DNA of 46,506 nucleotides from Symploca sp. SIO2C1 (lineage in GTDB: Bacteria; Cyanobacteriota; Cyanobacteriia; Cyanobacteriales; Coleofasciculaceae). This document shows positions 6,263 through 45,715 of the stretch, one piece after another (the stretch's first letter is position 1; each line of letters begins with the position of its first letter). A program made the translations under genes and the position numbers. Where the stretch lies: assembly GCA_010692635.1 (NCBI GenBank), contig JAAHGL010000042.1:1-46506 (forward strand), read 5' to 3'. The notes beneath the pieces were generated by a model. The model was not told the DNA's origin and ran no database searches. It saw nothing but the letters and a program-made list of their open reading frames with translations.

Positions 6263-6457
6263 TCTGATTGATTCAGTCATTGAAGAGTGCAAGCTGCCTC
6301 CTACACGGTGACAACCATTCTCACTACGAATTTTCGTAGTGAGCTTTTTCACTTCGTTTAAACGAAGTGAGCCAACATCGGACAGCAGTTCATCAACCCA
6401 GTCTGGATTATTTTTCAACCATGCAAGCCAATTTTTAAAAAGTTGTTCGTGTTTCAT
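6257..6457 (-). CDS. Small hypothetical protein, probably remodelled by palindromic insertions, 66 aa
   Basis: The N-terminal 30 residues (MKHEQLFKNWLAWLKNN...) look like an ordinary helical protein. The remainder is largely encoded by two palindromic repeat elements (6349-6370 and 6320-6343), which give the peptides SLRLNEV and KIRSEN. The tail after them shows no pattern. The gene follows the Excalibur-domain gene by 3 bp and ends in a 29-bp palindrome. I read it as a short gene whose 3' half was replaced or extended by repeat insertion, possibly a decaying remnant. Confidence 0.5.
   Translation of the reverse strand: MKHEQLFKNWLAWLKNNPDWVDELLSDVGSLRLNEVKKLTTKIRSENGCHRVGGSLHSSMTESIRF
6320..6343. 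repeat. Dispersed palindromic element, copy 1a
   Basis: Palindrome with arms CTCACTACGAA and TTCGTAGTGAG around a 2-base centre. It is the same type as those at 13821-13844 and 37510-37533, and lies inside a small minus-strand gene. Confidence 0.8.
6349..6370. repeat. Dispersed palindromic element, copy 1b
   Basis: Perfect 22-bp palindrome with arm TCACTTCGTTT, identical to the one at 21765-21786 inside the methyltransferase fusion gene. Only 5 bp separate it from copy 1a. In coding frame it yields the peptide LRLNEV at both sites. Confidence 0.82.
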
Positions 6458-13544: not shown

Positions 13545-14051
13545 TCATTTATAGCTCCAGGTTCCATCATACTGTGAGATGTTATCGTATCTGAGAATTT
13601 TTTCAACCAATGCTGATGAAATAATCTCTACCTTATACCCATCACTATCTTCAGCGACATCTGATACCTTCAACCGAGCATCCGACTCTACCACTCTCCT
13701 TATTTCTTCTATTGCCCCAGCTGGGTTACCCCCAACCTTACCCAAATACTGAGCCAGAGCATATTCGAGCAACTTATCAGCTGCTTCTTGGGGTGGTAGT
13801 GCTGAGTAATCTGGGTATGTGTCACTACGAAAATTCGTAGTGACGGGTTGCCACAGCACCTCCAACCCACCATTAAACTCTACCGCCACTACTTCGGCAC
13901 CAGGCTCGTATCTTGCGATTGCATCCCGCACCATTCGTTCTGCTTCTATTTGGTAATTGATAGAAGAAAGTCCCAGCAAACTATGCAGCGGTGTCTTGGT
14001 TGAGTCAGCCAGCACTGCTTCAATACTGGCTTGGATTTCGGCATTTGTCAT
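13545..14051 (-). CDS. Hypothetical structural-operon protein, 168 aa
   Basis: Mixed alpha/beta protein. The segment YQIEAERMVRDAIARYEPGAEVVAVEFNGGLEVLW (about 33-67) has a faint likeness to gp25/gpW baseplate-wedge proteins (AI..YEP followed by strands), but length and N-terminus do not fit well. A dispersed palindrome (13821-13844) lies in the coding region and yields TTNFRSD. It overlaps the upstream gene by 4 nt and precedes the fibre genes, so a baseplate or fibre-attachment role is possible. I would not name it more precisely. Confidence 0.65.
   Translation of the reverse strand: MTNAEIQASIEAVLADSTKTPLHSLLGLSSINYQIEAERMVRDAIARYEPGAEVVAVEFNGGLEVLWQPVTTNFRSDTYPDYSALPPQEAADKLLEYALAQYLGKVGGNPAGAIEEIRRVVESDARLKVSDVAEDSDGYKVEIISSALVEKILRYDNISQYDGTWSYK
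13821..13844. repeat. Dispersed palindromic element, copy 2
   Basis: 24-bp palindrome with arms GTCACTACGAA and TTCGTAGTGAC around AA, inside the 168-aa coding region and read in frame as NFRSD. It is the same family as 6320-6343 and 37510-37533. Confidence 0.8.
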
Positions 14052-18074: not shown

Positions 18075-18464
18075 ATGACTAAATATGATTACAATCTTCC
18101 TCATTTGAGATTGCCTCCCCCTGTTACGGTGTCGCTTTTTAAGCCGCCTAAAGAAAGGTTTGTTGAGCTTGGTGAGCGTGATTTAATCGCCTTGTGGAAA
18201 TCCGGGATTCTTTCCACGGATGCCTATATTCTGCTGGGAATTAACGCAAGTTTTGGGCAGAAAAAACCCAGTATTCACATTAGTTCTTTTTGCGAACTTT
18301 GGGAATTAGAAAGGGAAGATTTCCTCAAATCTGCTGCGGTATTGAAAAAGTTAGGAATTGAGTTTGACTTAGTTCCAGAACCAAAACCTGGTGACGTTGT
18401 TTTGGGAGGGAATGATAACAAATCCCAGCCGCGCCCCGACGATGCTGTTTTAGGGGGGGATTGA
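18075..18464 (+). CDS. Winged-helix-like protein, 129 aa (paralogue of 14790-15116)
   Basis: Residues about 35-95 (LIALWKSGILSTDAYILLGINASFGQKKPSIHISSFCELWELEREDFLKSAAVLKKLGIEF) share layout and several residues with the 108-aa protein at 14790. The C-terminus is a low-complexity tail with a repeated D-D-x-V-L-G-G motif (GDVVLGGND, DDAVLGGD). It follows dnaB by 66 bp and nearly abuts the HNH gene. Possible roles are an accessory replication factor or a regulator. The pairing of two such genes around the replication block suggests duplication. Confidence 0.72.
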   Translation: MTKYDYNLPHLRLPPPVTVSLFKPPKERFVELGERDLIALWKSGILSTDAYILLGINASFGQKKPSIHISSFCELWELEREDFLKSAAVLKKLGIEFDLVPEPKPGDVVLGGNDNKSQPRPDDAVLGGD

Positions 18465-18466
18465 CC

Positions 18467-18892
18467 ATGCCAATGAACCGCAAGCTATACCCCAAAAACT
18501 GGGAATCAATAGCACTACAGATAAAAGAAGCAGCTGACTGGCATTGCCAAGAATGCCAACGTCCTTGCAAGAGACCATCACAAAGCTGGGATGAGTTTAC
18601 CGAAGAATTGTATGGCAATGCCGTTCATTTCGGAGGTCTTAAATGGTACATCGATTTGTTCGATGATTATGATCCCGATGACGACCCAAAATATCGAAGA
18701 TTTGTTCTTACTGTGGCTCATCTTGACCACAATCCAGCCAATTGTAATCGCAACAATTTAAAAGCGCTGTGTAGTGTTTGCCACCTTCGTTATGACGCAA
18801 AGGAACACGCTAAGAAAGCTGCATCAACGAGATTTAGAAAGAAACAGCAGCAGTTAGAGATTGACGGACAGTTGAACTTATTTGGATCTTGA
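18467..18892 (+). CDS. HNH endonuclease, 141 aa
   Basis: An N-terminal C-x2-C (CQECQRPC, about 25-31) and a C-terminal HNH core are present: TVAHLDHNPANCNRNNLKALCSVCHLRYDAKEH (about 85-117). The H-L-D-H-N triad region, the following Asn-Leu and the C-x2-C-H zinc ligands are intact. HNH proteins of this form act as phage nicking or packaging endonucleases or as restriction enzymes. ATG 18467 is preferred over a TTG two codons earlier. The gene ends 1 bp before the methyltransferase fusion, so the two are almost certainly coexpressed; a nuclease next to methyltransferases suggests a restriction-modification-like pair. Confidence 0.88.
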   Translation: MPMNRKLYPKNWESIALQIKEAADWHCQECQRPCKRPSQSWDEFTEELYGNAVHFGGLKWYIDLFDDYDPDDDPKYRRFVLTVAHLDHNPANCNRNNLKALCSVCHLRYDAKEHAKKAASTRFRKKQQQLEIDGQLNLFGS

Positions 18893-18893
18893 A

Positions 18894-21800
18894 ATGGTAC
18901 GACGCAAAAAGACTAAAAAAGCAGTAAATAAACAACATTCTCAAGAGCTTTATAACTCAGCAGAAGTGGGAATGCTAGTGACATTAAAATCTGGAAAGAT
19001 TGGCGTCATTACCGAGAAGTTTTTTTCCCCTGGAGGAATGCCTCAATTTTGGGTACACGAAGCAGGGCATGGAATCCTTCCATATTCTATGGATTCAATT
19101 ACCAAGGTAGAAAAGAAGGCAACAGCAGTAGTCCTGTTCTCTGGTGGTGGTGGTGTTGAGGCTGGACTGGTGGACGCGGGAATTGAACCGTTGCTATCAG
19201 TAGAGTTCAACCCCGATAAGCCGGAATTGAGCGAGGCGATGTCGGACTGCCATGAGAAAAACTTCCCAAACTGCAAAGTGATTCGGCGAACTGTACAGGA
19301 ACTGGCAGCAGAGGATTTCCTAGGGTTTCCCCAAGAGCCAGATATCCTTTGGGCATCCCCAATGTGCAGCAACTTCAGTGTTGCCAAGAAGGGTGGCTCT
19401 GAGCAGAATGATGATGTGGCAGCGGCGAAAGCAATAGTAGCTTGTATCCGAAAAATCAAGCCCAAGCACTTTGTCTTGGAGAATGTGCCAGCTTATCAAA
19501 AATCTGAAAGCTGGGAGCAGATTAATTTTGTTATTTCTAGTCTTGGATATACTCAGAAGTACGCAATTGTGGATATGAGTGATTACGGCGTTCCCCAGGC
19601 GCGGAAAAGATTTCTTGCCTGGGCTGATCAGGATGATCAAGCTTCCTTGGAAATGCCAGAAAAGACTGATCATACCAGCTGGTACGAAGCAATTAAGGAT
19701 TTAATTCCTGATCTACCCGATTCTGAATTGTTAAAAGGACAACAGCGCTCAGTAGACCAATTCCTAGAAAATAATGCTCCAGAACCACTGTTGATTGATC
19801 GCGTAGGTGGTCGCAGTAAATATCGAGCGATACCTAGTTCCAAACCAGCAAACACGATACTGCGATCACACTTCACCGACGGAAAAGGGGCTAATCGTTC
19901 CAAGTTTGCTGATATCTGGCTCCCTGATGGTCAGGTAAAGCAGCTTACAATCGAATGTGTGCGCCGCCTCCAGAGCTTCCCTGATTGGTATGAGTTCCCA
20001 GAACCTGTTGCTGTAGCGGGTTCGATTCTGGGGTATTCGGTTCCTCCCAAGTTTGTGGAATTATTTCTGCGACCAATCGGACAGATTGCACCAACCACTA
20101 CACAAGCTAGCCACACAGCTGAGTGGGCTGACAAGGTTGGTGAAACTATTCAGCAAGTAAAGGAGTGGGCCCAAGAGGAGGAGGAAGAGGAAATGATACT
20201 AAGTTTTGGCTATACAGCGGATCGCCTTCATCAGAAAACGGTGACTCGGAGGAAGTGGAAAGACCGCCATGCCCAACAGTTTATCAAAGCATGGAATGAG
20301 GGAAAGTTTGTTGATGCTTACGACAAATCACCTCGGAACGGGGGGAAGAAGATTGCTACCATCAGACTGACTGCTGAACCATATCAGGAGAAGTTAGAGG
20401 ATATGCCAGAGTCGGAAGTAACTTTGGAAGGTTATCCGGAGCTATCAAAACAGGAATTTATTGATAAGTTTTTTGCAGATTTTGATGCTACACAGCCATT
20501 GTGGGTGGTTCGGTTCGCCATCATACCTTTTGCTTCAGGAGATCAAATTATTGAGGATATGAATAAGCCTGAGTGGGGTGAAAAGCAACCATCATTTATT
20601 AGAAGAGGAAAGCTTATTGATTTTCGCCCCATCCCTGGAAATGGATCGGCATTATACCCTTTTATAAAATACGACGATGGAAACGAGGGATTTGGAGTTT
20701 GGGATTGCCTTCTACCTTACGAAGGAGAGGTAGAAGTCTGCCAGCCAGTAGAATCTCCCTCCTCTCAATCAAAGAAAGCTTTTGATGAAGCGATGGAAGC
20801 TATTCAAGGAAATGGCAGTCATGCTCTATCTGTACAAACCTCATCAAAATCTGACGAGCATTACAGTCCAGATGAAGTGGTGAAAGCAGTGATCGCAACC
20901 CTCCAAATCATTGACCTTGATCCATGCTCCAACTCCCATGACCAACCCAATATCCTGGCTAATAACCACTACACTATTGAAGATGATGGGTTGGCTCAAT
21001 CTTGGGCAATTGGTGAGGGTAGGATTTACCTGAATCCCCCATACTCTGCCACAGCTGCATGGGTAGACAAGCTCTTAGAAGAGTATTCAGCTGGTGGAGT
21101 AAAAGAGGCAGTGGTATTGGTAAAGAGTGCCACCGACACTAAATGGTATCAGAAGCTTGATCAATTTCCCAAGTGCTTGTGGAATGGAAGGCTGAAATTC
21201 AAAGGAAACGATTCCCCAGCACCCTTTGCTAGCACTATTTTCTATTTGGGGAATTACTCCGAAAAATTCCAGGATGCATTTGGGAAATATGGGCGGATTC
21301 ACGGAGTCCCCACTTCCCCATCTCCCCATCTCCCCATCTCCCCATCCCCCATTACTGCCCTCAACATTTCCGAAATACGCCGTGACGGGGGGACTCAACC
21401 CCGAGAGAAACTGGACACCAGCCATGTTGCTACTTTGAAAGAAGCGATCGCAGATGGAGCCGAACTAGATCCGGTTATTGTTTTTTATGATGGTTCGGAG
21501 TATTGGCTTGCCGATGGTTTTCACCGGTGCAAAGCATCCATTGAATCAGGGCTTGAGGATATTCAGGTGGTAATTCACCAGGGAACTCGCCGTGACGCTG
21601 TACTCTATAGTGTTGGCGCTAATGCTGAGCATAAAGCAGCTAAACCTCGGAACCGAAAGGATAAACGTAGGGCTGTGATGATGCTACTGTCGGATTCAGA
21701 GTGGAGTAGTTGGAGTAATTGCGAAATTGCTCGAATCTGTAAAGTGAGCGAATCGCTTGTTCGCTCACTTCGTTTAAACGAAGTGAGGAATGATGGCAAA

Positions 21801-22943
21801 CCCAAAACTCGAACCTACACCACAAAACACGGCACTACTGCCACAATGCAGGTTGGGAATATTGGGAAAGGGGAACAGGAAACGGGAAACGAAAAAAATT
21901 CAGAGCTACCCGATTCAGATGCAGAAGACTCACAACCATTATCTGCCAATAATAGCAATGGCACTCTTCACACTGACAATGGTCACAGTAACAATGGCAA
22001 TAACGGCAATGGTTCGTCAAAAATCAACCGACCAGCCAACCGGTGGTATGGGGGGAAATGGCGAATTGGAAAATGGATCGCCTCTCACTTCCCAGAACAC
22101 AAGATTTATGTTGAGCCGTTTGGGGGAATGTATAGTGTAGGGATTCAGAAGCCCTCGTCAAAAATCGAAGTTTACAACGATATCCACCCGGAAGCCGTTA
22201 ACTTTTGGCGACAACTCAAGGACAATTCAGCAGAATTGATTTCTCAAATTGAGGCGCTCACCTTCAACGAGGCAACTGTAGAATGGGCCAAGCAACCGTC
22301 TGCTGATTCTGTAGAATTAGCGACCAAGTTCTACGTGCAATGTCGCATCACTTATGCCGGGGGTGGTACAGGTTGGGCGTCTGGCTATAGTTCAAAGTCC
22401 CTTGATAAGCCAGAAAATGATGACCATTCACACTTACACGCGATCACCAACAGGATATCCAATATCCAAGTCTACCATCTGGACGCCTTGGAGATTATCA
22501 AGCAGTTCGACAGTCCTGACACTCTCTTCTATTGCGACCCCCCTTACATCCAGGACACTCGGAATTCTCACACCCCATACGAGTATGAATATTCAATTGA
22601 GCAGCACATTCAATTGATTGAACTGTTAAGTAGTATCAAGGGAAAAGCGGTTATCAGTGGCTATCCTTCTTCTAAATACGCTTCCCTGCTGCAAGGGTGG
22701 CATCGGAAAGAAACAGAGGGGAGAGCGACCAGTGGTAAGGATACGATGGAGTGCTTGTGGATTAAGCCTACTGTCGAGATTGTTGACTACGTGATTGGTT
22801 TTGTCTCTAACATTGACCAGATGGGTGTCGAACAGCTGATTGAGGTTCGCGATCGCATTCAACAACGCTTACAGGCTTTACAATGTCCAACCATTCCCAA
22901 AAATGGTAAATCAACATCAGATTTGGTGCTAACATTGCGGTAA
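18894..22943 (+). CDS. Multidomain DNA methyltransferase fusion: C5-MTase, ASCH-like, Dam-like N6A-MTase, ParB/Srx-like, D12-class N6A-MTase (1,349 aa)
   Basis: Domains in order, numbered from ATG 18894. C5-cytosine MTase at about 80-400: motif I LFSGGGGVEAG at 81-91, a PMC motif with catalytic Cys158, ENV at 196-198, QARKR at 235-239, and a C-terminal LGYSVPP. ASCH/PUA-like domain at about 434-546 (KTVTRRKWKDRHA). Dam-like phage N6-adenine MTase at about 654-802, with DPCS at 676-679 and NPPY at 714-717. A repeat-encoded Ser-Pro linker at about 806-819. ParB/sulfiredoxin-like domain with HTH at about 832-966 (ADGFHRCKAS; a palindromic repeat encodes SLRLNEV). D12-class N6-adenine MTase at about 1050-1292, with FGG at 1076-1078 and DPPY at 1215-1218. 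All three catalytic motifs look intact. The HNH gene is directly upstream. Natural genes for these parts are usually separate, so this appears to be a serial fusion. Confidence 0.9.
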   Translation: MVRRKKTKKAVNKQHSQELYNSAEVGMLVTLKSGKIGVITEKFFSPGGMPQFWVHEAGHGILPYSMDSITKVEKKATAVVLFSGGGGVEAGLVDAGIEPLLSVEFNPDKPELSEAMSDCHEKNFPNCKVIRRTVQELAAEDFLGFPQEPDILWASPMCSNFSVAKKGGSEQNDDVAAAKAIVACIRKIKPKHFVLENVPAYQKSESWEQINFVISSLGYTQKYAIVDMSDYGVPQARKRFLAWADQDDQASLEMPEKTDHTSWYEAIKDLIPDLPDSELLKGQQRSVDQFLENNAPEPLLIDRVGGRSKYRAIPSSKPANTILRSHFTDGKGANRSKFADIWLPDGQVKQLTIECVRRLQSFPDWYEFPEPVAVAGSILGYSVPPKFVELFLRPIGQIAPTTTQASHTAEWADKVGETIQQVKEWAQEEEEEEMILSFGYTADRLHQKTVTRRKWKDRHAQQFIKAWNEGKFVDAYDKSPRNGGKKIATIRLTAEPYQEKLEDMPESEVTLEGYPELSKQEFIDKFFADFDATQPLWVVRFAIIPFASGDQIIEDMNKPEWGEKQPSFIRRGKLIDFRPIPGNGSALYPFIKYDDGNEGFGVWDCLLPYEGEVEVCQPVESPSSQSKKAFDEAMEAIQGNGSHALSVQTSSKSDEHYSPDEVVKAVIATLQIIDLDPCSNSHDQPNILANNHYTIEDDGLAQSWAIGEGRIYLNPPYSATAAWVDKLLEEYSAGGVKEAVVLVKSATDTKWYQKLDQFPKCLWNGRLKFKGNDSPAPFASTIFYLGNYSEKFQDAFGKYGRIHGVPTSPSPHLPISPSPITALNISEIRRDGGTQPREKLDTSHVATLKEAIADGAELDPVIVFYDGSEYWLADGFHRCKASIESGLEDIQVVIHQGTRRDAVLYSVGANAEHKAAKPRNRKDKRRAVMMLLSDSEWSSWSNCEIARICKVSESLVRSLRLNEVRNDGKPKTRTYTTKHGTTATMQVGNIGKGEQETGNEKNSELPDSDAEDSQPLSANNSNGTLHTDNGHSNNGNNGNGSSKINRPANRWYGGKWRIGKWIASHFPEHKIYVEPFGGMYSVGIQKPSSKIEVYNDIHPEAVNFWRQLKDNSAELISQIEALTFNEATVEWAKQPSADSVELATKFYVQCRITYAGGGTGWASGYSSKSLDKPENDDHSHLHAITNRISNIQVYHLDALEIIKQFDSPDTLFYCDPPYIQDTRNSHTPYEYEYSIEQHIQLIELLSSIKGKAVISGYPSSKYASLLQGWHRKETEGRATSGKDTMECLWIKPTVEIVDYVIGFVSNIDQMGVEQLIEVRDRIQQRLQALQCPTIPKNGKSTSDLVLTLR
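21313..21350 (+). repeat. 8-bp tandem repeat (TCTCCCCA) in interdomain linker
   Basis: Three exact TCTCCCCA units (21321-21344) with partial copies on both sides encode a Ser-Pro-rich linker exactly between the Dam-like methyltransferase and the ParB-like domain of the fusion protein. Confidence 0.85.
21744..21786. repeat. Dispersed palindromic element, copy 3, with adjoining inverted repeat
   Basis: The perfect 22-bp palindrome with arm TCACTTCGTTT (21765-21786) is identical to 6349-6370. It overlaps a second inverted repeat, GTGAGCGAA (21744-21752) / TTCGCTCAC (21760-21768). Both lie within the ParB-HTH part of the fusion gene and stay in frame. Confidence 0.8.
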
Positions 22944-24814: not shown

Positions 24815-25381
24815 ATGCCCAGAAAATCGCGTTACAACCAAGAAATTGTTGAAACCATTTGTGAAGCGATAGCCACAGAGGGAGGGGATGAAGTTGGCTG
24901 GTTGGCTGGGGGGATTTCAGAGCCTACTTTTTACGCCTGGATGAAACGTTATCCAGAGTTTGGAGAGGCAGTTGTACGCGCAAGGGAGGACTTTAGAAAA
25001 CGCTGTCCCAAGTATCAAAAGGGTTTGGCGCTTGCCAAACTAACCGAAGCATTGGAAAATGGGCAACCAATAAAGTGGACTACCAAGAAGACCAGGCGGC
25101 TAGATCATTACGTTCCGGGGAAAAAAGGAGAGCCTGCAAAACTTGTTTGGTATGATGAGGAAACAATTACTGAAGAACACATTGAGCATCGCCCCACCCC
25201 GAAATGGGCGATTGAGCGGGTAATCCCCCGACCGATAGAGGATGACCTCAATGTGGCGATCGCATTCGTTGAAAAAAATGGTTTTAAGGTGATAGTTGAG
25301 GATGAGGAAATCATCCAGCAATGGCTTAATTCGCAAAACGGTCACAAGGGTACTAAAGAACTCCCTGGCACTGTCGAATAA
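24815..25381 (+). CDS. Terminase small subunit-like protein, 188 aa
   Basis: The N-terminal 65 residues (YNQEIVETICEAIATEGGDEVGWLAGGISEPTFYAWMKRYPEFGEAVVRAREDF) form a phage small-terminase/transposase-like HTH (GISEPTFYAWM recognition helix, then PEF...AREDF). The C-terminal part is mixed and probably mediates oligomerisation or large-subunit contact. ATG 24815 is preferred because an earlier ATG (24788) lies in a hairpin loop. It recognises pac or cos DNA and precedes TerL, whose start overlaps its 3' end by 80 nt. Confidence 0.85.
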   Translation: MPRKSRYNQEIVETICEAIATEGGDEVGWLAGGISEPTFYAWMKRYPEFGEAVVRAREDFRKRCPKYQKGLALAKLTEALENGQPIKWTTKKTRRLDHYVPGKKGEPAKLVWYDEETITEEHIEHRPTPKWAIERVIPRPIEDDLNVAIAFVEKNGFKVIVEDEEIIQQWLNSQNGHKGTKELPGTVE

Positions 25382-26897
25382 TGCCTCGGATTTCTCCCAC
25401 TATGAGGGTAGACCCGTTGAGTTTGCTCATGAGGTTTTGGGTATACCCTACCTCACACCAGACACAATTGCTATCCTAGAAAGTGTACGTCACAACAAAG
25501 TAACTAATGTACAAGCGTCACATGGTATAGGAAAATCTTTTATCTCAGGTTCTGTGTTGACGATATGGTGGGTGTTTGCAGTAAAGGGACTCTGTATCAC
25601 CACAGCACCGACAGAGAGACAGGTAAAGCAAATCTTGTGGAGTGAGGCTCGGAAAAGCTACGGACTCAACAAGCATAAGTTTGGTGGTAGAGCTGGGGAA
25701 CTGTTTATTAACCTCAATGAGGATGCTAGAGCATTCGGCTTTACTTCCAGAAGTACTGATTCCAATGGTTTCCAGGGCATCCACAAGGATAAGCTGCTGC
25801 TGATAGAGGATGAAGCCTGCGGTATTTCTCCAGAGATTGATGAGGGGGCTGATTCCTGTTTGGTGGGAAGCAATAACCGAATGCTCAGAATTGGCAACCC
25901 ATTAGCTGACGGGACACCTTTTGCTCAAGCCTGTAAGCGTTCTCATATTAGAATTCCCGCCTGGACTCATCCCAACGTGGCATGGGCATACCAGAAGGAA
26001 TCGGATGGTATCCACCGGATTAAGCCAGAGTTGAAAGAGCATCTGTTTGATGAGAATGGCAAAGTGCTAGACCGAGAAAATTGGGGGAAGCCAGCACTTT
26101 ACTGTATGGCAGAGTACCTAGAAGAAGTAAAAGCCATTGAGATTAAGGGGGCTATCTCAGTAGAGTGGATTGAAAATGCCAGGATTAAGTATGGGGAAGG
26201 TTCAGCCTTTTGGGAGTCACGGGTAGAGGCAAGGTTCCCCTTAGATTCTGGACAATCCATCATTCCCCGCCGCTATTTCTTGATGGCTCGTGTCAAGTTT
26301 GACCAGTTCACACCATCGGAATGGAACCAGAAGCTGAAACGTCACACACCTCGATATGGCTTGGATGTGGGTGATGGTGGTGATGCTCATGCCCTATCTC
26401 GGTGGCAAGGATCTGTACTTTGGGAAGTGCGTGCTCAACCAACATTAGGTGATGAACTTGATACAGGGAGAGCGGCTGGTATGGTGTTAGCTGATATGAA
26501 ACAGCATGGTGATGGTGCTGTTGGGGTTGACAATGTTGGGGTTGGTGCTGGCTCACTCGATATTATCAAGCGCTCTAATATTTTAGCCAGAGGTATCCGC
26601 TGGGGAGTATCAGCTGAAGATAAAGAACGTTTTGCCAACCTTAAGGCTGAGCAGTTCTGGGAGGTACGGGAAGCTTTAGAAAAAAGGGAACTTGCGATCG
26701 CACCATTGGGTGATTATGAGGAAGAACTCATGGAGGATTGGGCTAATACTTTCTATGAGGAAACAGCCAGGGGACAGATTAAAATTGAGGATAAGGCTAA
26801 AACTAGGCAGCGATTAGGGAGAAGCCCCAATTGTGGGGATGCTGCTGTTTATGGGTATCATGCAGAACCTCCTATAAATCCACTATTGCTCACTTAA
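25302..26897 (+). CDS. terL: Terminase large subunit, 531 aa
   Basis: The ATPase domain has a Walker A-like ASHGIGKSF (about 73-81), followed by ITTAPTERQVKQILW and Walker B LLLIEDEA (about 164-171). The nuclease domain has GLDVGDGGDAHAL (about 348-360) with the first acidic residue, GVDNVGVGAG (about 408-417) and a final acidic segment (NCGDAAVYGY). This is the motor that packages DNA into the prohead. ATG 25302 is chosen with AAGGTGA upstream. It overlaps TerS by 80 nt. The length is normal for the family. Confidence 0.93.
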   Translation: MRKSSSNGLIRKTVTRVLKNSLALSNNASDFSHYEGRPVEFAHEVLGIPYLTPDTIAILESVRHNKVTNVQASHGIGKSFISGSVLTIWWVFAVKGLCITTAPTERQVKQILWSEARKSYGLNKHKFGGRAGELFINLNEDARAFGFTSRSTDSNGFQGIHKDKLLLIEDEACGISPEIDEGADSCLVGSNNRMLRIGNPLADGTPFAQACKRSHIRIPAWTHPNVAWAYQKESDGIHRIKPELKEHLFDENGKVLDRENWGKPALYCMAEYLEEVKAIEIKGAISVEWIENARIKYGEGSAFWESRVEARFPLDSGQSIIPRRYFLMARVKFDQFTPSEWNQKLKRHTPRYGLDVGDGGDAHALSRWQGSVLWEVRAQPTLGDELDTGRAAGMVLADMKQHGDGAVGVDNVGVGAGSLDIIKRSNILARGIRWGVSAEDKERFANLKAEQFWEVREALEKRELAIAPLGDYEEELMEDWANTFYEETARGQIKIEDKAKTRQRLGRSPNCGDAAVYGYHAEPPINPLLLT

Positions 26898-27386: not shown

Positions 27387-29285
27387 ATGAGTGAATTTCG
27401 CACTGATTCTGAAGCATTATTCGGAGCTTTTGCTGCTCTGGGCAATCCTTATACCGGAATTGGAACATCTAGAAGTAAAACAGAGAATGCCCAAGTAAAC
27501 ACAGGAAGGTATCACCTCAATCGAAATGCTTTAGAAGTTCTCCCCTACCGGGATGAGTTACTCAGAAAGGCTGTGTGCTTGTATCCTGAATGCGCTGCTA
27601 AAGCCTGGTTTCACTTAGCGATAGCTAACAATAAATCTGGTAATAATCTTCCTGATTTAATGATGGAATACATCGCTCAATTAGCAAATAAGGAAGATAA
27701 AACTCAAGAAGAAGATGAAGCGGATATTTATGGTGCTAATGATGCTTTTCCAATGGCAGCTATCCTAGCTCGTCAGTTTGGCAAGGCTTATATTCTCATG
27801 GGTATAGATGACGGGAAAGAATTTAGTGAACCAGTTGATAAAAATAGTATTAAATCTATTAGGTGGTTACAGGTTTATGACTGCTGGGAGTTGTATCCAG
27901 ATTGGGGGAGTAATAGGACTAGACAACCATTATTCTACCGTCTCTATTCCCATGCGTCAGACCAACAATATGGAGCAAAGATTCATAAGTCTAGAATCCT
28001 GCCTTTTTGGGGAAATCGACTCTACAGCCGCCGCAATTACCTGAAAACTGGATTGAATGACGACGGTGTGAGCGTTATCCAAAGTATGTACGATGCTTAT
28101 GTAGATTGGCTCCAGGGCATTAAAGCAGGTTCTGCGATGCTGGCGGATTACGACGTGTTCACTCTTGGCATGAAGGGGTTAGGACAGAGACTCCTAAAGG
28201 ATCAGCAGAGTGGAACTAATGAAGGGCAACAGCAGATTATTAAACGCTCACTTGCTCTGGATATGGGTAAATCCGTGGTTAGGGGCATCTACTACGATTT
28301 GGAGAATGAGGAGCCAGGGAGTGTAACTCGTTCCTACGGTGGTGCAAAAGATATCATGGAATCTTTGGAAAATCGCTGGGCAGCAGCATCAGGCATCCCC
28401 AAGTTTAAGTTATTTGGGGAGATAGGGAGCCAGGGGTTAACCAATAACCAAGGATTGGCGATGCGTTCTGAGTGGGCAATATTGGTGCAAGATTATGCTC
28501 ATAATTGGGTGAGCAATCTGCGGCAGCTACTCACCTATGCTTTTTTTGCCAAAGATTCCCCATCAAAGGGAAAAATTCCCGAATCCTGGAATATTGAGGT
28601 TCCCTTCGACTTGCAGCTAACAGATAGTGAGCGCATGGAATACGAGAAGCTGGCAGCTGACAGAAGTAAGATTTTGACTGAGATTGGGGCAATTGCTCCT
28701 GAAGAGGTGCGCTCCGGGTATATGGGTAGTCAGTTTTCTCCTGATTATGTGTTGTCTAAACGGGACGCACCGGACGAGGGAACGCGGGGACGCGGAGAGG
28801 GGGAGACAAAAGAGACGGGGAGACGGGGAGACGGAGAGATGGAAAGGACAGATGATGCTAGTCCGGTACAGCGGGTGATTGAATGGAACGGGTTAAAGAT
28901 AGGGCTTCAATACCTCCCCTTCCAGCTACGCCACGGCAAAATGCTGCCTGTTGGCTATGGACATATCCAGAAGACTAAGGGTGCTGATGGTATGGCACTG
29001 GATGTGTATGTGGGAACCAAACTGAACTCACCAAAGATTTTTGCGATCTCGCAGCACATTGATGGGAAGTTTGATGAGGAAAAACTTTTTATCGGTGTTG
29101 ATTCAAAGGAGGAAGCAATTCTGATTTATAAGCAGGTGATGCCTGCTGAGTTTTTTGGGGGTATACGTGAGATCATGCGCTCTGAAATTAGGACTGATTC
29201 AGACGAGCTGCTTACCGACGATGAATGGGAAGAATTAGCGACGGTGACAGCAGCAGATTTTCTGGAAGTAGCGATGGAGCTGTGA
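27387..29285 (+). CDS. Portal protein (DUF1073-like) fused to pyrophosphatase-like (InPase) domain, 632 aa
   Basis: Residues about 35-450 fit the DUF1073-type portal family: ALEVLPYRDELLRKAVCLYPECAAKAWF, ILMGIDDGKEF, WELYPDWG, then the late signature ASGIPKFKLFGEIGSQGLTNNQGLAMRSEW. Residues about 465-490 are a repeat-encoded hydrophilic linker. The C-terminal domain (about 495-590: LKIGLQYLPFQLRHGKMLPVGYGHIQKTKGADGMALDVYVG..., FDEEKLFIGVDSKEEAILIYKQ) matches the InPase domain of phage polyvalent proteins, which resembles inorganic pyrophosphatase. The portal forms the dodecameric channel at the capsid vertex; the fused domain may be internal cargo. Confidence 0.88.
   Translation: MSEFRTDSEALFGAFAALGNPYTGIGTSRSKTENAQVNTGRYHLNRNALEVLPYRDELLRKAVCLYPECAAKAWFHLAIANNKSGNNLPDLMMEYIAQLANKEDKTQEEDEADIYGANDAFPMAAILARQFGKAYILMGIDDGKEFSEPVDKNSIKSIRWLQVYDCWELYPDWGSNRTRQPLFYRLYSHASDQQYGAKIHKSRILPFWGNRLYSRRNYLKTGLNDDGVSVIQSMYDAYVDWLQGIKAGSAMLADYDVFTLGMKGLGQRLLKDQQSGTNEGQQQIIKRSLALDMGKSVVRGIYYDLENEEPGSVTRSYGGAKDIMESLENRWAAASGIPKFKLFGEIGSQGLTNNQGLAMRSEWAILVQDYAHNWVSNLRQLLTYAFFAKDSPSKGKIPESWNIEVPFDLQLTDSERMEYEKLAADRSKILTEIGAIAPEEVRSGYMGSQFSPDYVLSKRDAPDEGTRGRGEGETKETGRRGDGEMERTDDASPVQRVIEWNGLKIGLQYLPFQLRHGKMLPVGYGHIQKTKGADGMALDVYVGTKLNSPKIFAISQHIDGKFDEEKLFIGVDSKEEAILIYKQVMPAEFFGGIREIMRSEIRTDSDELLTDDEWEELATVTAADFLEVAMEL
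28812..28843 (+). repeat. 8-bp tandem repeat (GAGACGGG) in portal linker
   Basis: Four 8-mers (GAGACGGG twice, GAGACGGA, GAGATGGA), preceded by related G-rich sequence, encode the hydrophilic linker between the portal and InPase-like domains. Confidence 0.8.
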
Positions 29286-37365: not shown

Positions 37366-37572
37366 GTGGAGATTAGATGGCTTGCTGATGTGGTTGTGAG
37401 GATACCCTTTGAGGATGAGGTAATTGTCTTAGGGAAAGGAGTTGAGGCAATAGTACCGGAAACCGAGTACTTCAAAAATGCGATCGCAAGCGGTTATGCA
37501 GAAAAAATTCTCACTGCGAACATTCGTAGTGAGGCAACTGAGAAGGAGGAACCAATTATAGATGGCGACTAA
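37366..37572 (+). CDS. Small tail-region protein, 68 aa
   Basis: GTG start at 37366 with a purine-rich GAGGAGGATGAAGAG upstream. The first 50 residues (EIRWLADVVVRIPFEDEVIVLGKGVEAIVPETEYFKNAIASGY) look like a small beta-rich phage protein of the type encoded before the sheath. The C-terminal 18 residues include a peptide (ANIRSEA) from a dispersed palindrome at 37510-37533, so the tail may be extended by that insertion. The end overlaps the sheath gene by 11 nt. Confidence 0.62.
   Translation: MEIRWLADVVVRIPFEDEVIVLGKGVEAIVPETEYFKNAIASGYAEKILTANIRSEATEKEEPIIDGD
37510..37533. repeat. Dispersed palindromic element, copy 4
   Basis: Arms CTCACTGCGAA and TTCGTAGTGAG around CA, with one mismatch. 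It is in frame in the 68-aa gene, giving NIRSE. Same family as 6320-6343 and 13821-13844. Confidence 0.75.
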
Positions 37573-44645: not shown

Positions 44646-44773
44646 AAGCGTGTAAGCCCCCAGCTCGCTTGTTACTTTCGAGAACGATACTTCTGATAAG
44701 TTAGGCAACCATGCAATAGGGACTGGTTCAGGTGTTCGCATCAATATTGCAATTGAGGTGGGATTATGGAAAG
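44646..44773. other. Spacer between partition and recombinase genes; candidate recombination site
   Basis: 128 bp without a gene. It contains a small inverted motif ACTT-CTGAT-AAGT (44689-44701). A recombination site next to its tyrosine recombinase would be expected here or beyond 45716, but no clear dif- or att-like pair can be defined from this sequence alone. Confidence 0.35.
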
Positions 44774-45715
44774 ATGCAAGACATCCTTTCTGATACCTCC
44801 CTTGCTCTTACTACTGCTGTGCCTTTGACTCGACATCCAGCAGCAGTTTATTTATCGACCTTGGGGAAAGGCTCTCGCTCTACTATGCGGCAATCATTAA
44901 ATGCGATCGCAAGTATGCTCAGTAACGGCGAATGTGATCATCTCACACTGAACTGGGCAGCACTAAAATACGAACACACAGTAGCGGTGCAGGGAGTATT
45001 AATTGAACGGTATGAACCCGCCACTGCCCAAAAGATGATGTGTGCCCTACGGCGAGTACTGAGGGAAGCTCGAAAACTACGATTAATTGAAAACGAGATT
45101 TACGAAGCAGCTGTGGACTTACCTCCTATCAAATCTACTAAAAATCTTAGAGGTCGGGCTCTAAGTCAAGATGAGATTGCTGCACTCCTTGAGGTTTGCC
45201 GGGATGACCCCACTACCCAAGGTATTAGGGATGCTGCCTTGATTGGCATTCTACGCGGTGCTGGATTGAGAAGAGCCGAGGTGGTAAAGCTGAAACTCTC
45301 TGACTTCAAACCAGACACCAGTGCTCTAGAAGTGCGCGGTGGTAAAGGTGGGAAGGACAGAACTGTGTACCTACCAGATGGTGCAATCAGCTTGGTGGAA
45401 GATTGGCTCAAGGTTAGAGGCAATGAACCAGGTTCCCTGCTGTGTCCTATCAGAAAAACAGGAAAAATAGAACTGAGGCAGATGACTCCCCAGGCGGTGT
45501 TGTTGATTGTGCAGAAGAGAGCACAGCAAGCTGGGGTTGAGTCGTTTAGTCCCCATGATTTCAGGAGAACCTTCTGCTCAGATTTGTTGGATGCTGGCAT
45601 TGATATTGTAACGGTGCAGAAGTTAGCGGGTCATGCTTCTCCGGTGACTACTGCTAAATATGATAGGAGGGGTGAGGACGTGAAGCGGAGAGCTGTGCAG
45701 AAGTTGGGATTTTGA
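44774..45715 (+). CDS. Tyrosine recombinase (Xer/phage integrase family), 313 aa
   Basis: The N-terminal SAM-like core-binding domain spans about 20-115 (AVYLSTLGKGSRSTMRQSLNAIASML). The catalytic domain has the first Arg in RGAGLRRAEVVKLKLSD (about 155-171), a Lys in GGKGGKDRTVYLP, HDFRRTF (H-x-x-R, about 260-266), GHASPVTTAKY (His and the Tyr nucleophile) and a short tail. ATG 44774 is preferred, with GGAAAG upstream. Next to parA and an RHH gene it more likely resolves multimers or controls integration of the plasmid form; either role is consistent. Confidence 0.92.
   Translation: MQDILSDTSLALTTAVPLTRHPAAVYLSTLGKGSRSTMRQSLNAIASMLSNGECDHLTLNWAALKYEHTVAVQGVLIERYEPATAQKMMCALRRVLREARKLRLIENEIYEAAVDLPPIKSTKNLRGRALSQDEIAALLEVCRDDPTTQGIRDAALIGILRGAGLRRAEVVKLKLSDFKPDTSALEVRGGKGGKDRTVYLPDGAISLVEDWLKVRGNEPGSLLCPIRKTGKIELRQMTPQAVLLIVQKRAQQAGVESFSPHDFRRTFCSDLLDAGIDIVTVQKLAGHASPVTTAKYDRRGEDVKRRAVQKLGF

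Follow-up and report, generated by a model that had tools for sequence, protein, structure and literature searches.

The 46,506-nucleotide (nt) contig JAAHGL010000042.1 of the cyanobacterium Symploca sp. SIO2C1 (assembly GCA_010692635.1), the whole of which is referred to here as the window, encodes a protein, polyMTase, in which DNA methyltransferases (MTases) of three families are joined to a predicted ASCH fold and a ParB-type module. The segment of the gene that encodes the ParB-type module holds a perfect 24-bp palindrome, and in phage relatives the residues of the recognition helix co-vary with the bases of this palindrome. The module very likely binds this site, which lies within its own gene. 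We propose, at about even confidence, that polyMTase is a phage-encoded modular poly-methyltransferase which docks on this and on further palindromes and methylates phage DNA, protecting or marking it against host restriction.

Modular Architecture of polyMTase

An earlier note on this DNA, made from the letters alone, had described a single uninterrupted frame of 1,349 amino acids (aa) carrying three intact MTases together with ASCH-like and ParB/helix-turn-helix (HTH) domains. Both the frame and the presence of all these domains in one chain were confirmed, the MTases by Pfam matches above the curated scores, and the ASCH and ParB domains by fold. Three parts had been overlooked, namely an N-terminal module, an extra module at residues 549-640 and a conserved C-terminal tail. 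From the N- to the C-terminus, the order is C5-cytosine MTase, ASCH, small module, Dam-type MTase, ParB/HTH and D12-type MTase. Eight distinct chain members were found in total, all with this module order constant and all changes in frame; those named in the list below are described further on.

18894..22943, + strand: polyMTase open reading frame (ORF), one open frame of 1,349 aa; intact homologues exist
18894..19109, + strand: N-terminal module (residues 1-72), from alignment; missing in the C1 and Symploca sp. SIO2E6 members
19110..20081, + strand: C5-cytosine MTase module (residues 73-396; LFSGGGG, SPMC with Cys158, ENV, QARKR, GYSVPP), Pfam PF00145
20193..20537, + strand: predicted ASCH-fold module (residues 434-548), AlphaFold2 with Foldseek/VIA matches to YqfB 9kyf and ASCH 3s9x
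20538..20813, + strand: small module, fold unknown (residues 549-640), alignment and low-confidence model; in 3/8 members (window, C58, L042)
20814..21278, + strand: Dam-type N6-adenine MTase module (residues 641-795; DPCS, NPPY), Pfam PF05869
21307..21352, + strand: tandem repeat (TCCCCATC)5.9, read in frame, at the Dam/ParB joint, Tandem Repeats Finder (TRF)
21339..21851, + strand: ParB-fold, HTH and beta-hairpin wing module (residues 816-986), Pfam, structure model and Foldseek
21717..21797, + strand: predicted HTH helices (residues 942-949 and 953-968), structure model; specificity residue x1 is Glu953
21807..21851, + strand: predicted beta-hairpin wing TRTYT-TKHGT-TATMQ, structure model
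21864..21891, + strand: GGGAAAC-type repeat, read in frame, in the ParB/D12 linker, TRF
22017..22781, + strand: D12-class N6-adenine MTase module (residues 1042-1296; DPPY), Pfam PF02086
22782..22940, + strand: conserved C-terminal tail DYxIGFxSNID...RDRIEQRL, alignment; also in the D12-less L044, similar in the ParB-only ORF L015

The C-5 DNA_methylase family (PF00145) matched residues 81-392 (E 4.5e-34, 118.8 bits vs. a curated 22), Dam (PF05869) residues 650-772 (E 1.2e-14, 54.8 bits vs. 28.1) and MethyltransfD12 (PF02086) residues 1051-1262 (E 1.1e-22, 81.4 bits vs. 22). The catalytic motifs are intact, as had been claimed; the reading of the C5 motifs required correction. The usual form of C5 MTase motif IV is PCQ. 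Here it is SP[MV]C, with Met or Val replacing Pro before the Cys, and motif X is GYSVPP. Among the members covering the respective regions, SP[MV]C, ENV and QAR[KR]R were found in 7/7, GYSVPP in 8/8, NPPY in 5/5, DPCS in 4/5 (DPAS in L043) and DPPY in 7/7.

The ASCH fold of residues 434-548 was confirmed by fold in a predicted structure, without sequence-profile support. The AlphaFold2 model of residues 430-648 had a mean predicted local distance difference test (pLDDT) value of 62, with model residues 1-115 well predicted and the remainder poor. The ASCH part matched YqfB 9kyf (Foldseek E ~1e-3, TM-score by target 0.78; VIA Z 10.8, root-mean-square deviation (rmsd) 2.7 over 99 residues) and the solved ASCH domain 3s9x (VIA Z 9.0). 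By sequence, the module had no Pfam profile match, gave just phrog_11705 (function unknown) in PHROGs and only chance-level matches in the PDB. Sensing of a modified base is a possible role of the domain; the accessible text of PMC10853773 mentions a modified DNA-binding ASCH domain.

In the model of the ParB module (pLDDT 89), the ParB/Srx (ParB-CTPase) fold is present. The best Foldseek matches were ParB structures bound to cytidine diphosphate, 6sdk (E 2.4e-8) and 7bnk (2.9e-8), followed by Noc and KorB. The TM-score to 6sdk/7bnk was only 0.46 (rmsd 15) because the two ParB subdomains are arranged differently. Further, hmmsearch of the module gave 5.4e-7 to 7o0n, and Pfam ParB_N matched residues 822-900 with E 3.5e-5 and 24.2 bits, below the curated cut-off of 26.3.

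A Palindrome within the ParB Segment

The putative HTH site lies inside the coding sequence, just past the recognition helix's specificity residues:

21764..21787, unstranded: intragenic perfect 24-bp palindrome CTCACTTCGTTTAAACGAAGTGAG, putative HTH site within the ParB segment, sequence comparison

Perfect or near-perfect palindromes with compensatory changes, in two reading frames, were also found in the seven other chain members and in the ParB-only ORF L015. A second inverted repeat (AAGTGAGCGAA / TTCGCTCACTT; window 21742-21770) overlaps the intragenic palindrome.

Viral ParB-like genes were collected from IMG/VR by scans with three ParB alignments, each of which reported 510-570 relatives, 80 being kept per scan. 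From the resulting 269 ORFs with the ParB motif (overlapping contig copies included), filters for the anchor, length and <90% identity left 125 non-redundant genes, 81 from first-scan loci and 44 newly fetched. Within a 120-nt search zone beginning near the start of the recognition helix, perfect palindromes were present in 66/125 genes with arms of at least 9 and in 72/125 with arms of at least 8. The rate for arms of at least 9 was 0.2% in codon shuffles, 0.36% in protein-keeping synonymous resampling and 0/125 in a control region taken from the same ORFs. Counting just the newly fetched genes, 23/44 had such palindromes. The loop was 0-1, i.e., symmetric to the center, in 52 of the 72 palindromes with arms of at least 8; this symmetry and the co-variation with the HTH described below disfavor an RNA hairpin.

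A Predicted Residue-to-Base Recognition Code

Each half-site was read as an outer part (TCACT, ATCT or ATACT) followed by six inner bases, and the helix as V[SD]-x1-x2-x3-V. The code table comprises 66 of the 72 palindromes with arms of at least 8, the six omitted having an unrecognized outer half-site (five) or an unparsed helix (one). The x1 residue was associated with inner base 2 as follows: Glu with C (18/18), Asp with C (12/12), His with G (15/16), Gln with A (4/4) and Pro with T (5/5). Residues that occurred one to three times at x1 (Lys, Arg, Leu, Ser, Val, Thr and Asn) went with mixed bases. Counted over 45 unique helices, the rule was obeyed in 15/15 cases for Glu/Asp and in 10/11 for His. 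A natural switch was also observed, with HKT helices facing nGGGAA (3/3) and DKT, EKT or EGT helices facing nCGGAW (10/10). Imperfect sites, which played no part in deriving the code though some were already known beforehand, gave His with G/G 9/10, Glu 4/4, Asp 2/2, Arg with G/G 2/2 and Gln 2/3. As the code emerged from the whole set, the 44 newly fetched genes provide an independent check of the palindrome but not, strictly, of the code.

The outer half-site varied with the tip of the predicted wing: TKHG occurred with TCACT in 30 cases, plus seven of a shortened ACTG form, RNG with ATCT in 19, and HHKTG with ATACT in four and with ACTG in one. An apparent TKHG-ATCT exception, L125, has a tip that actually reads TVTRSGTTY. 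The x1-x3 codons were overlapped by no palindrome with arms of at least 8. Protein and site co-varied with a Fisher p of 6.6e-13 (this and the permutation tests ignore relatedness), and a partial Mantel test controlling for ParB_N distance gave r 0.27, p 2e-4, n 29.

Since a recognition-helix residue predicts a base of the palindrome, the HTH very likely has its binding site there, and from these comparisons we are highly confident that the ParB module binds the palindrome. Regarding the earlier suggestion that modification is coupled to ParB-like DNA scanning, the DNA-binding half thus gains support from a probable cognate palindrome in the gene itself. The view that specificities cannot be read from the sequence still applies to the MTases; for the ParB module, a target can be predicted.

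Further Palindromes in the Window and in Host Genomes

Four more sites of this type were located in the window:

6320..6343, unstranded: extra palindrome CTCACTACGAATTTTCGTAGTGAG, pattern match
6348..6371, unstranded: extra palindrome TTCACTTCGTTTAAACGAAGTGAG, 4 bp after the CTCACTACGAATTTTCGTAGTGAG palindrome
13821..13844, unstranded: extra palindrome inside ORF 13545-14051 (-)
37510..37533, unstranded: extra palindrome, imperfect (9/11 pairs), upstream of the tail sheath gene

Homologues of ORF 13545-14051 (-) also contain TCACT palindromes in their coding sequence, one in L131 (72% identical; 796-1308) and two in L041 (57%; 26-538). This ORF had no PHROG match, and the palindrome cores differ among the window, L041 and L131.

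Within the 8.17-Mb host assembly, the 12-base pattern TCACTnCn8GnAGTGA was confined to six places, five in the phage contig and one in the ParB segment of the C58 paralogue, and the reversed control pattern was found nowhere. The C1 paralogue carries a TCACC variant that this pattern misses. With a 14-base form of the pattern, 5/5 matches in the genome of a Coleofasciculus metagenome-assembled genome (MAG) lay on the phage contig; Symploca sp. SIO2E6 had one match (in the ParB segment) and genome G011 two, one of them in a ParB gene.

These data bear on the idea that the palindrome is a mobile palindromic repeat, tolerated in linkers and devoid of any ParB function. Such a repeat would account for its occurrence in linkers, in more than one frame, and likewise in the linker between C5 and Dam of L041 as well as in a further gene. 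The co-variation of residues and bases and the fixed place across distant phages speak against it, as does the lack of the pattern anywhere else in the host assembly apart from the paralogue's ParB segment, and we consider it extremely improbable.

Members and Mosaicism of the Chain Family

The host genome (8.17 Mb, 470 contigs) contains two paralogues of polyMTase. The C58 paralogue (1,198 aa from the ATG) is without Dam, and the C1 paralogue (1,004 aa) is without the N-terminal module, the counterpart of the extra module 549-640 and Dam. The complete architecture recurs in the viral contig L042 (1,337 aa from the ATG; 81% in the best segment), which, together with relatives in other assemblies, answers the call of the earlier note to look for the same order elsewhere. 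Symploca sp. SIO2E6 has a member of 993 aa, and an identical version of 1,336 aa, without ASCH and with a different stretch after Dam, occurs in the Coleofasciculus MAG and in three IMG/VR contigs. The ASCH module is missing in L041 and Dam in L040; L044 (1,088 aa) has cleanly lost D12 and kept the C-terminal tail. In the 5'-truncated L043, Dam is only 34% identical and a mere remnant stands at the place of ASCH; L048 is part of the same sequence. The serial fusion was indeed unusual, as had been stated: at least 80% of the chain in one place was found in 0/683 phage and 0/1,961 plasmid records with a tblastn match.

The ratios of non-synonymous to synonymous substitution rates (dN/dS) relative to L042 were 0.093 for C5, 0.125 for Dam and 0.111 for D12 (dS 0.8-1.1 for these three), and 0.08 for ASCH, 0.11 for ParB, 0.16 for the N-terminal module, 0.22 for the extra module and 0.29 for a linker, all by simple NG86 with dS close to saturation in places. 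The modules, at 0.08-0.22, are thus under purifying selection. This selection, the full architecture in a separate viral contig and the two host paralogues show that the chain is not an assembly error.

Simpler combinations of the same parts were also encountered in other phages. L108 encodes ParB-MT-A70, then C5, then D12 as adjacent separate genes; L074, L084 and L129 carry two-domain ParB-Dam fusions; L146 has a C5-ASCH fusion (ASCH by BLAST only), L148 encodes ASCH and C5 as separate genes, and the cyanobacterial locus L013 has a C5-Dam fusion. By sequence, the chain resembles a modification operon whose genes have become fused. The D12 module at E<=1e-60 was found in 3/20 genomes of the GTDB family, all five matches being within such chains. 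The TCCCCATC repeat was considered as a recombination joint for module swapping at the Dam/ParB joint; among the matches listed, with overlapping registers counted, 31/33 of its places were elsewhere in the host genome.

Post-translational cleavage of a polyprotein into the separate enzymes would fit the linkers that join the modules, which are repeat-derived and probably flexible. Pfam and PHROGs showed no protease module in the chain, and the linkers vary freely among members, which makes this a very improbable account of the chain.

Phage Contig and Gene Neighborhood

The ends of the window share an exact direct overlap of 96 bp, and the window is therefore probably a complete phage genome, circular or circularly permuted, of ~46.4 kb (about 46,410 bp). 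A replication initiator, a DnaB helicase and an HNH gene lie upstream of polyMTase, and terminase, portal, head, tail sheath, tape measure and integrase (44732-45715) genes lie downstream (Pfam/PHROGs).

18461..18892, + strand: HNH endonuclease, phrog_1571 4.1e-26; stops one base before the polyMTase ATG

The position of this gene raises the possibility that the MTases and the HNH endonuclease form a restriction-modification system. Besides the window, where the two genes are one base apart, HNH is an immediate neighbor in C58 and L042, and in L044 it is found upstream across a gap of ~860 bp. The gene in this position is, however, VapE-type in C1 and L040 and of the phrog_2045 family in L041, and the HNH protein matches phage HNH families. 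HNH as a restriction partner was rejected because it is not constant (upstream in four members, other genes in C1, L040 and L041, L043 being truncated), and a restriction-modification system is very unlikely. Among the best 25 of 66 rows of PADLOC profile matches, the chain matched type II, Druantia-type and orphan MTases only and HNH weakly ZorE; no defense system was assigned from these rows.

Plasmid-like partition, in which ParB and the palindromes would segregate a circular prophage with the MTases as passengers, would agree with the circular element suggested by the terminal overlap and with several parS-like sites. An integrase is present, and no ParA match was obtained among the window ORFs scanned (a part of all ORFs); we consider partition very unlikely.

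Behind polyMTase, five members have a gene of 350-365 aa of unknown family (L009 6759-7811; L010 4679-5776 (-); L040; L042; L044); none was seen there in the window. A TGT/DpdA-like identity for this gene had no support in Pfam, NCBIfam, PADLOC or PHROGs. The C-terminal domain of the portal protein (window 27387-29285) matches Pfam InPase PF18823 (1.9e-17). The terminase large subunit (window 25296-26897) has a PHROG match (3.2e-21) and no terminase Pfam match, and its listed start overlaps the gene for the small terminase subunit.

Proposed Docking and Delivery of Methylation

Under the proposed mechanism, a dimer of the ParB-fold/winged-HTH module would bind the 22-24 bp palindrome in its own gene and at the four further places in the phage, the recognition helix reading the inner half-site and the wing the outer TCACT. 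Once docked, the chain would methylate the phage DNA, at C5 of cytosine and in two ways at N6 of adenine, possibly following a slide gated by nucleoside triphosphate (NTP). Methylation would protect or mark phage DNA against host restriction enzymes, and in-frame exchange of enzyme modules would change the marks. Docking of the chain on phage DNA is well supported by the sequence comparisons, and we infer the delivery in cis. An address that lies in the gene and recurs around the genome suggests a marking of phage DNA as self by the phage.

A more far-reaching form of this proposal is put forward tentatively. The ParB module would load the three-enzyme chain at palindromes in phage genes and carry it along, self being given by the address of the molecule and not by the methylation sequence. 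Address and reader would be inherited as one segment and co-diversify by the residue-to-base code, and the cargo would be swapped module by module.

Several observations weigh against docking and delivery as proposed. Firstly, the motifs of the CTPase switch are only partly retained: QPR keeps its Q and GxxR its last R, and GFHR stands for GERR and AN for EN. The replacement of Glu by Phe and by Ala, respectively, makes NTP-gated sliding doubtful, and a nucleotide switch is possible, but weakened. ParB-CTPase-fold fusions to S-adenosylmethionine-dependent methyltransferases are reported to bind ATP in the accessible text of PMC12704722. Secondly, the palindrome and the code have exceptions. 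No perfect palindrome with arms of at least 8 was found in 53/125 ParB genes, 22 of which also lacked an outer half-site pair; the rule linking Phe/Tyr at x3 to C at base 6 is weak (19/29 vs. 2/37 for other residues); and the extra window sites keep nCG, with three of the four reading nCGAA vs. nCGTTT in the ParB segment. At the fixed anchor, the reading frames were used unequally (38, 5 and 24 of 67). Occurrence in more than one frame shows that the DNA is conserved and not one peptide, and the rare frame may be rare since AGTGA would read there as a TGA stop. Thirdly, support from named isolated phages is little. In a collection of 50,697 records, seven match a typical ParB relative; among five fetched records, the in-gene palindrome of L318 has arms of 9 and a different motif, L316 has arms of 7 (TCTGTCGCTGAACGACAGA), and L317, L319 and L320 have no in-gene palindrome with arms of at least 8.

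The remaining points against docking and delivery also favor a different explanation, namely that the ParB module serves as an autorepressor or as a transcription factor, like KorB and StrR, which restrains the multi-MTase through the intragenic palindrome, with the MTases acting as ordinary orphan anti-restriction enzymes on any DNA, that of the host included. An MTase fused to the ParB-like ORF was detected by Pfam in only 10 of 73 viral cases (seven MT-A70, three Dam), so that binding is not tied to methylation in general. No TCACT-type palindrome with arms of at least 9 occurred outside the ParB ORF in 786 kb of flanks around these 73 ORFs. Most phages thus seem to hold one site nearby, in the gene itself, which fits autoregulation as well as loading. 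Further, four records are annotated as streptomycin-operon regulator (the check covered five of the seven matching phage records, from four phages with CHOED represented twice, MW202898 included), a long palindrome is bound by StrR (PMC8306873, accessible text), and KorB is among the fold matches. An operator would, however, be expected at a promoter and not 2.9 kb into an ORF, and the extra window sites lie in or near unrelated genes. Autoregulation combined with global methylation is nearly as good as docking for relatives with a single site; for polyMTase, we regard it as conceivable and rather doubtful.

Relation to Known Systems

Canonical ParB, Noc and KorB, with their parS, Noc-binding (NBS) or operator sites, share with the chain the fold, the HTH and a palindromic site, predicted in our case. 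The chain differs from them in having GFHR for GERR and AN for EN, a wing hairpin behind the HTH and a palindrome of 22-24 bp. In Bacillus subtilis, a parS site lies inside the spo0J/parB gene. We know of no MTase fusion of StrR-type regulators. By description, these also use a long palindromic site, GTTCGActG-N11-CagTcGAAc (PMC8306873, accessible text).

ParB-CTPase-fold-MTase fusions of phages likewise combine the ParB fold with an MTase and are prophage-enriched; their partners include N6_N4-MTase and Methyltransf_23 in phages and MT-A70 and ASCH in archaea. The accessible main text on them mentions no D12 or C5 family (PF02086, PF00145), no palindromes or intragenic sites and no three-MTase chain (PMC12704722). 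Phage polyvalent proteins also unite many unrelated enzymatic domains, adenine methylase and ParB included (PMC5512222, accessible text), whereas the recognized enzyme domains of the chain are all DNA methylases; the polyvalent hub domains (MPTase, ART, ArdC, SNF2) had no Pfam match in the chain at E 0.1. M12.MhoVII likewise unites MTases of two classes, D12 among them, in a single polypeptide, but belongs to a type II restriction-modification system with a nuclease, and no ParB, ASCH or C5 part is mentioned in the accessible text (PMC12898733). The cytosine carboxymethyltransferase CmoX is a phage C5-MTase fold with ParBc neighbors, searched for by SPPC and R350, and the precise function of ParBc in the CmoX/MTase context is termed unknown in the accessible text (PMC12783734). 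CmoX-like carboxymethylation by the C5 module of the chain was rejected, as 7/7 members have SP[MV]C instead of SPPC.

Of the kinds seen here, ParB-MTase fusions, multi-domain phage proteins and parS sites within genes are thus already known. The literature search, outside which lay most subscription papers and all bioRxiv preprints, returned no C5 + Dam + D12 + ParB chain and no intragenic palindrome in phage ParB-MTase genes. As far as searched, three MTase families with ASCH and ParB in one chain, the in-frame modularity and the family-wide intragenic palindrome with its residue-to-base code are new.

For many ParB-methylase proteins, the intragenic palindrome provides a predicted DNA target and makes their role testable. 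In this co-variation a phage HTH family effectively displays a natural code for DNA recognition, and its many natural variants allow the code to be checked. The chain further indicates that a single, swappable phage protein can combine several DNA marks. Lambda O and the pac sites of terminases are cases of DNA-binding phage proteins with a site in their own gene. The palindrome described here would extend this principle, by which reader and address stay together in mosaic genomes.

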